Source: Rhodothermales bacterium
GTDB taxonomy: Bacteria > Bacteroidota > Rhodothermia > Rhodothermales > UBA10348
Assembly (NCBI GenBank): GCA_028284865.1
Contig: JANQQV010000009.1
Coordinates: 1-64,000 of the forward strand
Length of the DNA: 64,000 nucleotides
Direction of reading: 5' to 3'
Numbering within the stretch: the stretch's first letter is position 1; each line of letters starts with the position of its first letter. The notes beneath the pieces were generated by a model, which saw nothing but the letters and a program-made list of their open reading frames with translations, did no database searches and was not told where the DNA came from. The position numbers and the translations under genes were made by a program. Positions 10,929 through 18,421 of the stretch are shown piece after piece.

Positions 10929-12257
10929 CTAGTTGTCCGCAGGAAGGATCTCGACCGGCTGGAGGCGACCCTCATCGCGGTTCAGGAATTCCTCATAGAG
11001 GTCGATGTGGCGATTGTCGATGGGCACATTGAACCCGTCTATGAACAGCGCCAAGATATTGGTGCTCGTTTCGAACGGATCGCCATCTGACACGAACAAG
11101 TTGGCTTTCTTGCCGACTTCGATGGATCCGTAGTCATCGGAAATACCGAATACTTCTGCAGGTCCCAGGGTGACGGCACGAAGGGCTTCTTCCTTACCCA
11201 ATCCGTAGGCGGCCGCAAAGCCGGCGTTGAATGGCAGGTTGCGGACGTTTTCCGATTCGCCAGAGCGAATGGCCACTTTCACGCCCGCCTCGGCCATCAA
11301 GCCCACGTTGGCATAGGCTCGGTCATACCGGTCTGAGGAGCGGGTTGGCGTAGCCAGTACCGGACCGACCAGAGCAGGAATGCCGGCAGCGGCCAGTTTG
11401 TCAGCCACCCGCCAGCCCTCGTTGACACCGCTGAAGATGACATTCGGCAATTCCCGTTCGGCCACCCAGTCGATCGCCTTTAGGATATCGTCGGCTGCAT
11501 TGACCTTGATCATCAGCGCGACATCGCCACTGAGGACGGGTCGAAGCGCATCCATTTCCGGGGCATAGACGGGCATTTCCTTGCCGGTGGGGTCGGCTTC
11601 ATAGGCGCTCACGATGCGATCGTAGAGCACGGCACGATCGAAGACCTCATTCAGCTTTGCCATGCCATTGCGATACATCAGCGCGCGACGATCCACTCCC
11701 TGCATCCAGGATGGACGTGCCCCGCGAGGGGCTTGAGGGAACTGGACAATCACCATCTGGGCGCCAGCAGACATCTGCTCGGCCGTGTAGCCATGCAGGT
11801 TGATGACCGCAGCGGTCCCAGGAAGCAGTCCGCCAGAAGGCTCAGAGACAACGGTTGTGACCCCACTCACTCTCGTGACGGGGATCGCCACCGCGTTTGG
11901 ATTGACGGCCGTCAAAGCGGACATGTGAGGGGTTACATCCCCGATCTCATTGGTGTCGTTGGTTTCGGCCACGCTGCCGATCTCTACGAGTCCCAGCGAC
12001 GTTCCTGAGTCGATCATACCCGGATAAACATGCAGTCCGGAGCCATCGATTACTTGAGCGCCCTGTGGAATGGCCACATCCGCGCCAACGGCAATGATTC
12101 GATCGCCTTCAATGACGACGGTGCCTTGCTCAATCGTTCCGTTGGCAACGGTTTCGATCTTCGCGTTGGTGATGGCATACGTGCCCTGACGTGCCCGGTC
12201 ATCCTGTTGCTGCAGGAACAGACCCATCGCCAGAACAAATGTCATAAACAGATTCAT
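10929..12257 (-). CDS. Exported amidohydrolase-fold protein lacking the HxH metal motif
   Basis: The fold is that of an imidazolonepropionase-like amidohydrolase: an N-terminal composite beta domain (ITNAKIETVANGTIEQGTVV), a TIM-barrel core, and a C-terminal GSIEVGKKANLFVSDGDPF strand. Residues 1-18 form a hydrophobic export signal. Where catalytic members read DAHTH, this protein has DSGTS (residues 83-87), so both metal-binding histidines are missing. The later strand positions, for example VALMIKVNAADD and VIFSGVNEG, also lack the expected His. It is probably a non-catalytic paralogue. It is last in a three-gene operon, 16 bp after the next gene. Confidence 0.8.
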   Translation of the reverse strand: MNLFMTFVLAMGLFLQQQDDRARQGTYAITNAKIETVANGTIEQGTVVIEGDRIIAVGADVAIPQGAQVIDGSGLHVYPGMIDSGTSLGLVEIGSVAETNDTNEIGDVTPHMSALTAVNPNAVAIPVTRVSGVTTVVSEPSGGLLPGTAAVINLHGYTAEQMSAGAQMVIVQFPQAPRGARPSWMQGVDRRALMYRNGMAKLNEVFDRAVLYDRIVSAYEADPTGKEMPVYAPEMDALRPVLSGDVALMIKVNAADDILKAIDWVAERELPNVIFSGVNEGWRVADKLAAAGIPALVGPVLATPTRSSDRYDRAYANVGLMAEAGVKVAIRSGESENVRNLPFNAGFAAAYGLGKEEALRAVTLGPAEVFGISDDYGSIEVGKKANLFVSDGDPFETSTNILALFIDGFNVPIDNRHIDLYEEFLNRDEGRLQPVEILPADN

Positions 12258-12273
12258 GGTGCGTTGGGGTCTA

Positions 12274-13719
12274 TCAGTTGTTCGGGGTGTGGTAGTAGAG
12301 CGTATGCAGATCGATGTCGGCTGCCGAGCGGAAGAAGCTCATCATGTCCGTTGCTTCGTCGTGAACGTGTGCATGGTCATGGCCGGTGATCTGCCCCTCG
12401 TACTGACCAACGCCGGTTGACGGGTTGATATCGACACGCATGTCATCCGGATCGTTTTGGCGGTCGAACACCTTCTCTCCGTCCACATAGGTGAGCACTG
12501 GGATCGTATACACCGATAGCGGGTGTCCCTCGAAAACAGCGACGTCACCGTCTTTCCCGATTTCGATGGAACCGACACGATCCTGGATACCCAACTGGAT
12601 GGCTGGGTTGATGGTGATCATCGCGAGGGCCTCATCGTCGGTCAATCCACCGTACCGCTGCGACTTGGCCGCTTCGTGATACAGGTGACGGTTCAGCTCG
12701 GCGCTATCCGAGTTGACGGAAGTCAGGACACCGTTTCGGGCGAGAATGGCCGCATTGTAGGCCGTCGAGTAGTAGACTTCGAACTTGTAGGACCACCAGT
12801 CCGAAAACACGCTGGCAAACGCACCATATTCGGCGAGCTCGGGGGCCACTTTGAACGCTTCGTTGGCATGCTGGAAGGTGATGTTTGTCACACCATAGTC
12901 GTCCAGGACGCGAAGAAGCATCACGATCTCATCGGCGCGGTAGCTGTGGCAGTGTACCAGGATTTCGCCTCGAAGGATGTCTGCCATTACTTCAAGCCGC
13001 TCATTCCAGACAGGAGGGACGGCCCGAGGGTTGTTCTGGAGGTCTGCTTCGTACGCATCCCAGGCTTCCATGTACCGTTTTCCATTCTCGAATGCGCCAC
13101 GCAGGACCTGTTCGACGCCCATGCGCGTGGCCGGAACGATAGCGCCCGTGCCGCCCGATGCGCGTCGCCCATGGACACGTGTCGGATTCTCTCCGAGTGC
13201 GAACTTGATCGTGCGAGGAGCGCCTTCGAATCGGATGTCATCCGGGTTGGTGGCTCCCCAGAGGTGTTTGATGGTCTCGTTCTGACCGCCAATCACGTTG
13301 GCTGAACCGTGCATGATGTGGGAGACGGTCACACCGCCTGCAGAGGCACGATAGATGCCCAGGCTGTAAGGGTTGGTGACGTCTTCCATCGACACTTCAG
13401 CCGTCACAGGGCTGGTCCCTTCGTTGACTGACGAAAGCGCAATATGCGCGTGAGCATCGATGATGCCGGGCATCACGAACTTTCCGGTGGCGTCAACCTC
13501 TTCGACTCCTCTCGGGGCCCGCAGGTTGGTACCGATTTCCGCAATGATTCCGTCGGAAATCAGGATGTCCGTGTCCTCAAGCGTACCGTTCGTGACGGTC
13601 AGGACGGTGGCGTTGCGAATCAGGACATCCTGGGCGTGGGAATCCTGCGCAACCAGCGCAGAACCAACCAAGACCGCCAGGATCGTGAGCAGCGTTGTTT
13701 TCATGATTGCGTTTCTCAT
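12274..13719 (-). CDS. Exported metal-dependent amidohydrolase (intact active-site motif)
   Basis: This is the only member of the trio with the metal ligands kept: IIDAHAHIA gives H90 and H92, with further His in LVHCHSYRADE and TFQHANE, and an Asp in NSDSAELNR. The N-terminus (MKTTLLTILAVLVGSALVAQ) is a signal peptide, so it acts outside the cytoplasm. The C-terminal NPAIQLGIQDRVGSIEIGK region is the usual closing strand. A long His/Asp-rich tail follows (GHDHAHVHDE). The ATG at 13719 overlaps the previous stop by ATGA, implying translational coupling; ATG at 13704 is the alternative. The substrate is unknown; peptidase or cyclic-amide hydrolase is likely. Confidence 0.85.
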   Translation of the reverse strand: MRNAIMKTTLLTILAVLVGSALVAQDSHAQDVLIRNATVLTVTNGTLEDTDILISDGIIAEIGTNLRAPRGVEEVDATGKFVMPGIIDAHAHIALSSVNEGTSPVTAEVSMEDVTNPYSLGIYRASAGGVTVSHIMHGSANVIGGQNETIKHLWGATNPDDIRFEGAPRTIKFALGENPTRVHGRRASGGTGAIVPATRMGVEQVLRGAFENGKRYMEAWDAYEADLQNNPRAVPPVWNERLEVMADILRGEILVHCHSYRADEIVMLLRVLDDYGVTNITFQHANEAFKVAPELAEYGAFASVFSDWWSYKFEVYYSTAYNAAILARNGVLTSVNSDSAELNRHLYHEAAKSQRYGGLTDDEALAMITINPAIQLGIQDRVGSIEIGKDGDVAVFEGHPLSVYTIPVLTYVDGEKVFDRQNDPDDMRVDINPSTGVGQYEGQITGHDHAHVHDEATDMMSFFRSAADIDLHTLYYHTPNN

Positions 13720-15152
13720 CGATTTGCCCCGTTGTCATCTCCACCTCGCTCATTCGAGGCAGCAGGTTCATAGACGTGACCATTCACGAACACCATTGTG
13801 ACTGAGGTGTCTTCGTCAAACACATCTCCGGTCGTCACTACCAGGTTGGCCATCTTGCCTGTGTCCAGCGAACCCACCAGACCATCGATGCCAAGGATAC
13901 TGGCAGCATGGGTCGTCAGGGCTGCCAGCGCGGCATCGCTGGACAATCCATTCTCAATCATTTCCCTGAGATTGGCGTGGATGTTCTTGGCACTGACGCC
14001 CATGGAGGCGAATGCGAAGTCGACACCAGCGGCCTCATACATGGCCGCCATGCTTAAATAGCGGGCGCGGGACCAGAGCTGACGGGCTTCCAGGTTGCTC
14101 CGCTCGGCCTCTACATCACGGTAGGTGGCTGTTCTGGTGTCATCGTTGTACGAATCAAGGATTTGCTGCAGCGAGTCAGCCTGAATCTTGGCCGTCCATT
14201 GTGGCTTCTCCGGCAAATCCAGAGTCAGGACGGTTCGGCCACCACTCGCCGCCACTTTTTCGACCGTATCAAATCCTCCCTGGAGACCAGTCAGGATCAT
14301 GTCGAAGCCCAGCTCTTCCTGGAGGGTCATGGCCCGATGGACTTCCAGCACCTCGTCGGTCCACACGACCACTGGTCGCTCGCCCGCGATGACCGGGAAG
14401 AAAGCTTCATGCACCTGGTCAAACGGAGGCTTGGGCAATCCACTCGGATCTTCGGCGTACATGGCTTCCAGTTTCATCCGGCGATCGGCTTCCCGATAGA
14501 GCTGACGGAATCGGGACATAATGGCCATCGGCGTTCCCGGGTAAACCCCCTGGGCGCCACGGAACTGAAAGAACATGGGCTGCATCCCTTGAAGGATCAT
14601 CTCGGCGGCTTCAGTCCCGCCCAGCAATGCCAAGGTGGCTTGTCCGGGGAGCATACGCCCCCGTGGAGCTACGAGTGCGGCCGTGAATCCAGCGTTGCGC
14701 ATGGCTTCAATCGCATCGTCGTCCGGGTCCAGTGCCGTACGCGCTGATTGCTCGGGTGTAATGCCTGCCCGCTCGTACGGTGGGTTGCTGCGATCAGGCA
14801 CGGATTCAGGTTGTCCCTGATTGCGAGGCTCCGGGATGCCGACGTGAGACAGGGCATCAATGAATCCGGCATACACCGTGAGGCTGTCGCCATCAATGAC
14901 GTGCGCGTCGTACGGAATGTCTACTCGTCGACCAACGTCGGTGATGACTCCATCCCGGAAGACAATCGTCCCGGACTCGATCACCTGACCAGGTGATTGC
15001 ACGATGCGGGCGTTCTGGATGGCAACGACGTTTGACACCACAGGGATGTCAGGGCTGTTTTTCTGGGCGAATGCCTCATCGGGCACACTCCAGAGCCAGA
15101 TGAAGGCCGCCAGAGCGGCGGCGATCAAACGGCGTCCTCGGGGAGAGGGCAT
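13716..15152 (-). CDS. Exported amidohydrolase-fold protein with degenerate metal motif
   Basis: First gene of the trio. A basic start and hydrophobic segment (residues 8-29) end at AFAQ, a signal peptide. The composite beta domain reads IQNARIVQSPGQVIESGTIVF, and the end GSLDTGKMANLVVTTGDVFDED is characteristic. The HxH site is DALSH (residues 99-103), losing the first His. The barrel positions VVVWTDEVLEV and TLDLPEKPQW also lack the usual His. It is probably catalytically inactive or has a changed chemistry. Sequence differs greatly from the other two, so the duplication is old. Confidence 0.8.
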   Translation of the reverse strand: MPSPRGRRLIAAALAAFIWLWSVPDEAFAQKNSPDIPVVSNVVAIQNARIVQSPGQVIESGTIVFRDGVITDVGRRVDIPYDAHVIDGDSLTVYAGFIDALSHVGIPEPRNQGQPESVPDRSNPPYERAGITPEQSARTALDPDDDAIEAMRNAGFTAALVAPRGRMLPGQATLALLGGTEAAEMILQGMQPMFFQFRGAQGVYPGTPMAIMSRFRQLYREADRRMKLEAMYAEDPSGLPKPPFDQVHEAFFPVIAGERPVVVWTDEVLEVHRAMTLQEELGFDMILTGLQGGFDTVEKVAASGGRTVLTLDLPEKPQWTAKIQADSLQQILDSYNDDTRTATYRDVEAERSNLEARQLWSRARYLSMAAMYEAAGVDFAFASMGVSAKNIHANLREMIENGLSSDAALAALTTHAASILGIDGLVGSLDTGKMANLVVTTGDVFDEDTSVTMVFVNGHVYEPAASNERGGDDNGANR

Positions 15153-15297: not shown

Positions 15298-15576
15298 CTA
15301 GGCCTCTGCTGACCAGTCGTCCACCACTCCCAGAATGATGACATTGGCCGGAACGTCGTCCTTGTTCATCAACTGGCGAACAACGGATCCCTCGCGTGCG
15401 ACAATTACCACGTCGTCCATGCCCGCCCCGTACCCTGGGTCAATGGCCAACATGTCCATCTCGCCTTCGAGATCTCCAAGGGTGTCGATGGGGTGGACAA
15501 TCAGCAGTTTGCCGTCCTTGAAGGAAGGGGCTTTTCGTGAGGACACGATGGTGCCGGTCACTTTGCAAAGTTGCAT
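15298..15576 (-). CDS. EutN/CcmL-family microcompartment vertex protein
   Basis: A 92-residue protein of the BMC-P family, whose pentamers cap the vertices of bacterial microcompartments. The start MQLCKVTGTIVSSRK, the central IDPGYGAGMDDVVIVAREGS, and VVRQL match the family closely. No BMC-T or BMC-H shell protein or encapsulated enzyme gene is in the window. The gene is alone, 145 bp beyond the amidohydrolase operon and possibly read from its own promoter. Isolated EutN-like genes occur in several phyla, and their role is not established. Confidence 0.88.
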   Translation of the reverse strand: MQLCKVTGTIVSSRKAPSFKDGKLLIVHPIDTLGDLEGEMDMLAIDPGYGAGMDDVVIVAREGSVVRQLMNKDDVPANVIILGVVDDWSAEA

Positions 15577-16235: not shown

Positions 16236-16246
16236 GCGACCTACTT
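16230..16246. terminator. Small hairpin over two converging stop codons
   Basis: AAGTAGG and CCTACTT (7-bp perfect arms, loop CGA) overlap the stop codons of the Phd-like gene and the convergent ATPase gene. On the minus strand it could help end the ATPase message. Confidence 0.3.
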
Positions 16247-18226
16247 GACGAGATGGGATAGTTCGTCCACGCGACGGACGATCGTTTCCCGATCCATGGT
16301 GCGATACTTCTCTGGTAGCAGCGCACGCGAAGTGCATTCGAGCACGGCGACGAGCGTCTGAAGCTCCACTTCCAACGGATAGGTTGGCGGCATGAAGTCG
16401 TCGACGACATCCTGAAGAACCCGCTGTGTCACTTTGCCTTTCGTTCGTCCATCGGAAGCCGCACGAAACTTGGCTCGCGTGAGAAGTGCTTCCATGTCGG
16501 CGCCTGAGAACGTTCGCTCACCGTTGAGCAAAGCATCCGGGACGTCCTTCATGTCGATCTCGACGCCCGTCTTCTTGAGCATGACCTCGAGCAGCTCCTC
16601 GCGCTCTTCGCGCGTGGACGGGTAGAAGAGGGCGATGTGCTCTTCAGCACGACCCTGTCGCTTCAAGTCAACCGGCATGTAATCCGGGCGGGCCGTCAGC
16701 AAGAACCAGATGACCTTGCCGCGATTCTTCGAGTTCGACATGAACTGCGCGATCTGTCCGAATACGCGCTTCGAAACCCCGGAGTCGCCACCGGCATCAC
16801 GGTTGCCCAGGGCCGCGTCAGCTTCGTCAATCATCACGGCAACGGGCGTCATGGCCTGAAGCAATGTGAGAATCTTCTCCAGATTGGCTTCGGTCTGCCC
16901 CTGCCACTGGCTCCGGAAGTTCTTCAGCTTGACCATCGGCACACCGATGTCGCCGGCGAAGCACATGATGGTGAAGGTCTTTCCCGTTCCGACGGGTCCG
17001 GAAACGAGATATCCCATCGGCATGACATCCTGTCGCCCTGCTTTCAGAGCTTTGGCGGCGTCTCGAAGGTGGGCCTTGGCCTGTGCGTGGCCGGCGACCA
17101 TGTCCAGGTTGAGGTCCGTCTCCATGAACTCCAGCATGCCGAACGCTTCGGCCTCGATGAAGTCCTTTTTCATGGCCGAGAGGGCATCGAACGTGAAGTC
17201 CGTATGGTTCTCAAGCACGTCGGCAATGATCGAGCGGAGCTGGATGAAGCCCAGTCCGGCCGTATTCGAGGCCAGCTGGTCTGCTTCGACCGTGGAATGT
17301 TGCTTCCATTCGCCCTCCAGACCGTCGAGGGAGTAGGAAACGAATTCATGGCGAGCCGTTTCGTCGGGAATCGGGATCTGGATTTCCGCGGTGTACGGGC
17401 TTTGGACGACCTGCTGATTCAGCTCGCTCAGATTCTGCGCGACGAGCGTTACGGTGAAGTCGCTGTCCAGGAACAGCGGGTCGTGTGCCCACTTCTGCAG
17501 GAAGACCAGCGTGTTGCGGTCCTCGGCGGAATACATCGAGGCTTCCGCCATCGGAATGACGGTTTCAGCATAGTCGATGATGCACGCGATCCGTTTTCCC
17601 TCTCCGAGGCGGAGACGGAAATAGTTCTCCAGAACGGAGAGGACGCGGACCGGGTCTTTCGGAAGCTTCTTGGCGTAGTCCGTTCCGAAAATGGTGTCGT
17701 ATCCAGACAGCGCGCGGTTGAAGTCTTTTTGCGATGCCTTATCGGCAAAATGAATGCCGGACGAGCGATCGTAAAAGAGTACGATGTCCCGTGCGGCGAA
17801 CAGCTCCTGCAGCAAGAAGTCATGCAGGGAGATGTAGATTCGATTGCCATCAACGTCTTCAGTGGGCACCAGATCGCGGACATTTCCATACAGGATGAAC
17901 TGCGTCAGCGTCTTGGTGAAATACTTCCGGGCGTATTCCTTGGCCCACTCCGGATAGTGCGAGGTGTACTTCTCCAGCAGGCTGGGGCCAGCCGGTGAGG
18001 GCACATCGATTGAGACTGACTCAGGAACGCTGTCTCCCGACTCGTCTGGTACGATTTCGTCTTCTGCGTGATCGTCGCCATCCGCATCGGTGGCTTGTTC
18101 CGCAGCCTGGTCTTCGTCCACGGTCGGCGTTTCGGCGGCAGAGGCGCTGGTCGTGTCCTGCTCAGAGGTCTCGTCGACGCTGGTTTCTTCTACCTGCGTC
18201 TCTTCGCTTTCGGGCTTCTTCGCCAT
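16241..18226 (-). CDS. AAA+ ATPase with degenerate first ATPase-like domain
   Basis: From ATG 18226 the protein has 661 residues. Residues 1-75 are a disordered Glu/Asp/Thr-rich stretch. Residues 80-330 look like a P-loop ATPase fold with a Walker-B-like strand (IACIIDYAE, about 215-221) but no Walker A. Residues about 375-600 are an intact AAA+ module: GPVGTGKT (410-417), VMIDEAD (464-470), a sensor region, and a lid with GRAEEH. The layout resembles cyanobacterial/plastid Ycf46, an analogy only. An upstream GTG/ATG frame (to 18292) would add 22 Pro/Arg-rich residues and is unlikely. It has no obvious operon partner. A remodelling role is inference. Confidence 0.82.
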   Translation of the reverse strand: MAKKPESEETQVEETSVDETSEQDTTSASAAETPTVDEDQAAEQATDADGDDHAEDEIVPDESGDSVPESVSIDVPSPAGPSLLEKYTSHYPEWAKEYARKYFTKTLTQFILYGNVRDLVPTEDVDGNRIYISLHDFLLQELFAARDIVLFYDRSSGIHFADKASQKDFNRALSGYDTIFGTDYAKKLPKDPVRVLSVLENYFRLRLGEGKRIACIIDYAETVIPMAEASMYSAEDRNTLVFLQKWAHDPLFLDSDFTVTLVAQNLSELNQQVVQSPYTAEIQIPIPDETARHEFVSYSLDGLEGEWKQHSTVEADQLASNTAGLGFIQLRSIIADVLENHTDFTFDALSAMKKDFIEAEAFGMLEFMETDLNLDMVAGHAQAKAHLRDAAKALKAGRQDVMPMGYLVSGPVGTGKTFTIMCFAGDIGVPMVKLKNFRSQWQGQTEANLEKILTLLQAMTPVAVMIDEADAALGNRDAGGDSGVSKRVFGQIAQFMSNSKNRGKVIWFLLTARPDYMPVDLKRQGRAEEHIALFYPSTREEREELLEVMLKKTGVEIDMKDVPDALLNGERTFSGADMEALLTRAKFRAASDGRTKGKVTQRVLQDVVDDFMPPTYPLEVELQTLVAVLECTSRALLPEKYRTMDRETIVRRVDELSHLVK

Positions 18227-18421
18227 CGTCGTTCCGTTGAGTTGGGGAGCCGGGTGGGGGGGAGCGGGCCGTGCGATGCGCCCGCGCCACAAGAAACGAC
18301 TTTCCTACGGTCCGGGTCCAGCCCGGTTGCGATTGATCAAGCGCTCCAGACGCTCACGTTTTCAGGTTTGGATTGCCTCAAAGCATTGCGTCCCACGATT
18401 GATACAATAAAGAGTGGGTAC

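Follow-up and report, generated by a model that had tools for sequence, protein, structure and literature searches.

Conserved linkage of an exported-type amidohydrolase to two metal-less homologues in Bacteroidota, and its fusion to one of them, suggest an enzyme with pseudoenzyme subunits

Three adjacent reverse-strand genes of a Rhodothermales bacterium encode amidohydrolases of which only the middle one has a complete metal site, and it is likely that this middle protein serves as catalytic subunit in an exported hetero-oligomer whose other members, its two neighbors, are metal-less subunits of the same fold. The genes lie in a window of 64,000 nucleotides, the whole stretch of DNA that was analyzed, and are named A, B and C in their order of transcription, with A first. 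There is strong indirect evidence that B forms a hetero-complex with A, and B is probably associated with C as well. A wider evolutionary reading – an exported enzyme with a single live subunit and two different metal-less ones, both obligatory, whose dead lineage arose once before these enzymes spread in the Bacteroidota and Alphaproteobacteria, co-evolved with the live subunits in the style of proteasome alpha and beta chains, and was later fused in much of the phylum – we regard as evenly balanced between right and wrong.

Gene A (13716..15152, reverse strand) encodes a protein of 478 amino acids without metal ligands, gene B (12274..13719, reverse strand) one of 481 amino acids with the complete site, and gene C (10929..12257, reverse strand) one of 442 amino acids, again without ligands. 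The stop of A and the start of B share a 4-nt ATGA overlap (13716..13719, reverse strand) and B and C are separated by 16 nt (12258..12273, reverse strand); the positions, strand and spacing given in the original prediction are all correct. Each product matches the Pfam profile Amidohydro_1, and NCBIfam profiles of dipeptidase-like proteins and further amidohydrolases are matched in part. The three belong to one subfamily, and for each the nearest solved structure is 3ooq, an uncharacterized amidohydrolase of Thermotoga maritima (E values of 3.6e-60 for B over its full length, residues 31–422, 1.6e-33 for C and 2.6e-14 for A). Signal peptides had been claimed for all three; by eye they are clear in A (...EAFA/QK) and B (...SHA/QD), both of which appear to be exported; C has a short, hydrophobic N-terminus with no charge in the n-region, its orthologues looking clearer. 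We note that B ends in a His-rich tail (GHDHAHVHDEA, 12330–12365, reverse strand) that varies among orthologues and may bind metal.

The metal ligands were read from an alignment of 132 proteins. B has the set of the superfamily, namely the HxH of its DAHAH motif (H90 and H92, codons at 13444..13452, reverse strand), K172, H258, H284 and D338, and all of these are invariant among 111 B orthologues (111/111 for the HAH), as are H134 and H137. The DAHAH place is taken by DSGTS in C and by DALSH in A, and the later ligand positions are occupied by Q172, K251, G277 and G333 in C and by Q196, W264, G289 and M384 in A. None of 110 A orthologues and none of 110 C orthologues has the ligand set. In C, Gly stands at the first HxH position in all 110 and at the beta-6 His position in 109; in A these positions are mostly Leu or Met and mostly Gly, respectively, and there is free variation at beta-5 and beta-8, with F, N, Y, H, K or W at beta-5 in the split form. 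The motifs and lost histidines first read from the three genes are thus borne out, down to the complete set in the middle gene, and neither an outer-gene homologue with the ligand set nor any other decay was found in approximately 110 orthologues of each. HxH is also retained by the other amidohydrolases inspected in this genome, except where a paralogue is adjacent, and with this control and 110 to 111 orthologues per gene the ligand pattern is beyond chance. B looks like a working amidohydrolase of the 3ooq subfamily, predicted to be active from its full-length match to 3ooq and its complete ligands.

Because the ligands are invariant in B and the set is missing throughout A and C, the metal-less state is fixed rather than a product of decay, and A and C belong with structural members of the superfamily rather than being filed as metallohydrolases. 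That they are relics, decaying tandem duplicates kept by chance, is scarcely credible: it would suit the loss of all metal ligands from two of three genes, but is refuted by the intact frames and fixed losses, by the slow evolution of C, which nearly matches that of B, and by co-retention even when the genes are unlinked. It is very improbable, too, that the alignment misleads and that different barrel residues coordinate a metal in A and C, as might be supposed because His is retained at the second HxH place in approximately 45% of A proteins and occurs at the beta-5 place in some C proteins of the fused type; no alternative invariant metal-binding cluster was found in A or C, and neither has a His among its positions that are at least 95% conserved.

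The A-B-C order extends across approximately 14 families of the order in a panel of forty related genomes. For a broader comparison of loci we took the best 80 of 462 relatives of B in a named genome collection, and 78 of these have A-B-C, the other two being A-B or B-C at contig ends. The best 80 include Rhodothermales, Balneola, Roseivirga, Algoriphagus, Fulvivirga, Saprospiraceae, Salinimicrobium and others; the median gap is 4 nt between A and B and 7 nt between B and C (quartiles −4 to 17 in both cases). The original prediction held that it would gain support if related genomes kept the order of the three genes and had lost the same residues, and that an unconserved order would count against it; the order and the losses are both kept across a phylum. 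Since flanking genes are common only to close relatives and the order persists where the flanks differ, the linkage of A, B and C is not mere synteny. The neighboring genes were also considered as a clue to the substrate, but MazG, AAA and SSB genes flank the operon in near relatives only and point to no pathway. An AAA ATPase with a long N-terminal part (16241–18292, reverse strand) is a conserved upstream neighbor in 27 of the best 80 loci. Just upstream of A, here and in dozens of near relatives, is a gene for a 92-residue protein that by eye resembles EutN/CcmL and is a putative microcompartment vertex protein (15298–15576, reverse strand); two BMC shell genes are found elsewhere in the same genome (contig C18).

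Retention of the genes was followed in 198 genomes of the phylum. B is present in 106 of them at E ≤ 1e-90, and a C profile run on the same genomes identified a C orthologue (E < 1e-100) in 108, including all 106 with B. Two genomes, G137 and G141, at first seemed to have C without B, but this is a threshold effect, since B is there in a frame of approximately 1,010 amino acids just outside the cut-off or below the matches scored at first. Both genes are therefore present in 108 genomes and neither in 90, a partition whose chance would be 1/C(198,108), or about 1e-58, for independent genomes; the genomes here are not independent. In approximately 12 genomes (for example G079, G095, G121, G135 and G139) C persists at a distance from A-B or on a different contig, so that linkage alone does not explain its retention. 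The inactive homologues are both co-encoded and co-retained with live B, and the three genes are kept together in about half of the sampled phylum, often with one dead partner fused to the live protein.

In the more distant half of the genomes with B, B lies inside a frame of approximately 1,000 residues. Forty of these frames were inspected and every one is a natural A-B fusion with the dead half first, the A-like part occupying residues ~1–530 and B residues ~560–990. The B half keeps six of six ligands in all 40 and the A half never has the set, showing instead its own preferred replacements at the ligand positions (Y, D, S and E); C adjoins the fusion in 31. A 983-residue frame over B in genome G014 was rejected as a fusion, being just an overlapping frame. 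Most A proteins (for example locus L066, 619–2412) and the A-B linkers of the fusions contain an extra beta domain of ~110 residues with no Pfam match, which is missing from the A protein of the window. By the 'Rosetta stone' argument the fusions suggest an A:B complex. An AlphaFold2 model of one fusion, computed with 39 natural sequences, has a pLDDT of 87.4 and a pTM of 0.85 over 1,014 residues, and its live half superimposes on 3ooq with a TM score of 0.89 at 36% identity. Although only an overall score, this pTM is above expectation for freely floating barrels and suggests a defined arrangement of the two. Gene order, A-B fusions and B/C co-occurrence favor the hetero-oligomer originally suggested, the latter two exceeding what had been predicted, and it is from these that we infer the association itself, above all that of C, together with the A:B:C assembly and the roles of the partners.

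The fusions also bear on the idea that the dead partners are secretion or folding helpers, chaperones for B, or decoys, and form no lasting complex. All three proteins appear to be exported, and dead homologues can stabilize their partners, as in the ATCase-pDHO of Pseudomonas aeruginosa, where complex formation raises the subunit melting temperature by ~30 degrees (PMC7053772). However, fusion leaves A permanently attached to B and the conservation of C is unusually high for a loose helper, and we consider this explanation improbable.

The dead proteins differ in how strongly they are constrained. Averaged over alignment columns, entropy rises from 1.13 bits in B to 1.32 in C and 1.85 in A, and mean identity is 71%, 64% and 52%, respectively, A being fast-evolving and weakly aligned outside the motifs. 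A is a barrel with a composite sandwich according to profile and fusion model, and C likewise according to its own model, in which the barrel is intact (pLDDT 89.9, pTM 0.87; TM score 0.85 to 3ooq). C has 100 positions that are at least 95% conserved, including E92, D101, R129, E280, W282, D309, N337 and R339, and the loops of its former catalytic face, with limits set from the model, show higher conservation than the remaining core (p 0.017). A surface that lacks metal yet is so highly constrained fits an interface or a binding pocket.

Such constraint might also be expected if A and C were neofunctionalized and acted alone, by metal-independent or different chemistry, at steps of a pathway consecutive with that of B. 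In C a set of invariant polar residues particular to this protein follows the barrel strands (E92, D101, R129, E280, R306, D309, N337 and R339), the A halves of the fusions have preferred residues of their own, and B/C co-occurrence suits a pathway as well as a complex. On the other hand, the more distant genomes encode A and B as a single chain, whose overall packing is confident in the model, and the ligand positions of split-form A drift in a manner unlike a catalytic site. Neofunctionalization of both proteins seems unlikely.

In the complex that we favor, A and C would be dedicated TIM-barrel subunits that have lost metal binding, derived from a single ancient metal-less lineage that later split in two. 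The A-B fusions suggest that A is structural and tightly packed on B in a fixed arrangement; C would be the second partner, its former catalytic face now a conserved interface or a small-molecule (sensor) pocket, although C could act separately from A:B. B would hydrolyze a small amide in the periplasm – a peptide, N-acyl amino acid or cyclic imide – and would be active exclusively, or most active, in association with A and C. Its substrate is probably a periplasmic peptide or N-acyl amino acid, as is weakly hinted by a peptide transporter in Qipengyuania, an M19 dipeptidase gene beside a second set in the same genome (both discussed below) and the partial dipeptidase-like NCBIfam matches.

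This second set, D and E, is an unlinked live/dead pair from the same subfamily whose genes overlap by 4 nt (contig C21, 240471–242860, locus L078), in which D keeps HSH, K, H, H and D and E has lost the set; it is present without the A-B-C set in some genomes. The adjoining gene on the opposite strand encodes the M19 membrane dipeptidase. Live and dead members also lie side by side in the Sphingomonadales Qipengyuania and Novosphingobium, the Qipengyuania pair being located behind a peptide MFS transporter. In Bacillota and one actinomycete the live gene has no adjacent dead partner and its product appears to be cytoplasmic, so that the fold of B can presumably be active alone. A tree of 78 rows unites A, C, E and the dead proteins of Alphaproteobacteria in a single clade (support 98), and B groups apart from it with the alphaproteobacterial live proteins (99); in a 43-row tree the dead clade has support of 98/97, and still 97 when the seven ligand columns are removed. 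Local death of tandem paralogues was rejected with A+B+C as one clade (AU p 4e-65), and D+E as a pair of their own was not (p 0.12). The outer genes are thus not paralogues that died beside the enzyme, as had been supposed, but members of a single ancient dead lineage, which is found with live enzymes in the Alphaproteobacteria as well. From these sequences a single dead origin appears firm where A and C are compared with B, and less firm for E, in trees whose long branches, above all that of A, call for caution. A further adjacent dead/live pair, of a different, D-aminoacylase-like branch and 36% identical, is encoded at locus L248, 466–3760 (contig C9, 12965–16259); the first protein has HxH replaced (PGFINMLSW) and later His kept, and the second has HxH intact.

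The amidohydrolase superfamily is very large and its members are usually annotated as metal hydrolases, which two of the three operon copies cannot be. Our findings account for a set of entries named 'amidohydrolase family protein' in Bacteroidota, including those of approximately 1,000 residues, and advise caution in assigning activity to them. The natural series of single live protein, live and dead pair, live protein with two dead partners, and dead-live fusion makes it possible to test directly how a pseudoenzyme subunit arose and what it does. No papers on inactive or tandem amidohydrolases or on the A/B/C set were found in the open-access literature, a search that covered few subscription journals; enzyme/pseudoenzyme complexes are known as a kind, and the set itself is undescribed in the literature searched.

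Among proteins of known structure, 3ooq resembles B in fold and ligand set and differs from the A/B/C set in that its metal-site residues are complete and it has no known partner; the open-access literature yielded neither paper nor function for it. Solved-structure matches also include CRMP and dihydropyrimidinase-related structures such as 4b90 and 4cnt. CRMPs have the amidohydrolase fold without a metal site and form (hetero)tetramers, but they are animal proteins of the hydantoinase branch and are not known to be coupled in an operon or fused to an active enzyme. In Helicobacter pylori Csd1:Csd2 a metal hydrolase is joined by a homologue with incomplete ligands that binds no metal (PMC5053510), although the fold is that of M23 peptidases and there is a single dead partner. 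There is a likeness also to the ATCase-pseudo-dihydroorotase of P. aeruginosa, in which an active enzyme requires an inactive chain of the amidohydrolase superfamily as a subunit (PMC7053772). There, however, the active chain, a transcarbamoylase, has a different fold and belongs to a known pathway, whereas in the A/B/C set the live and dead chains are homologous and apparently exported, two dead proteins accompany one live protein, and natural live-dead fusions occur.
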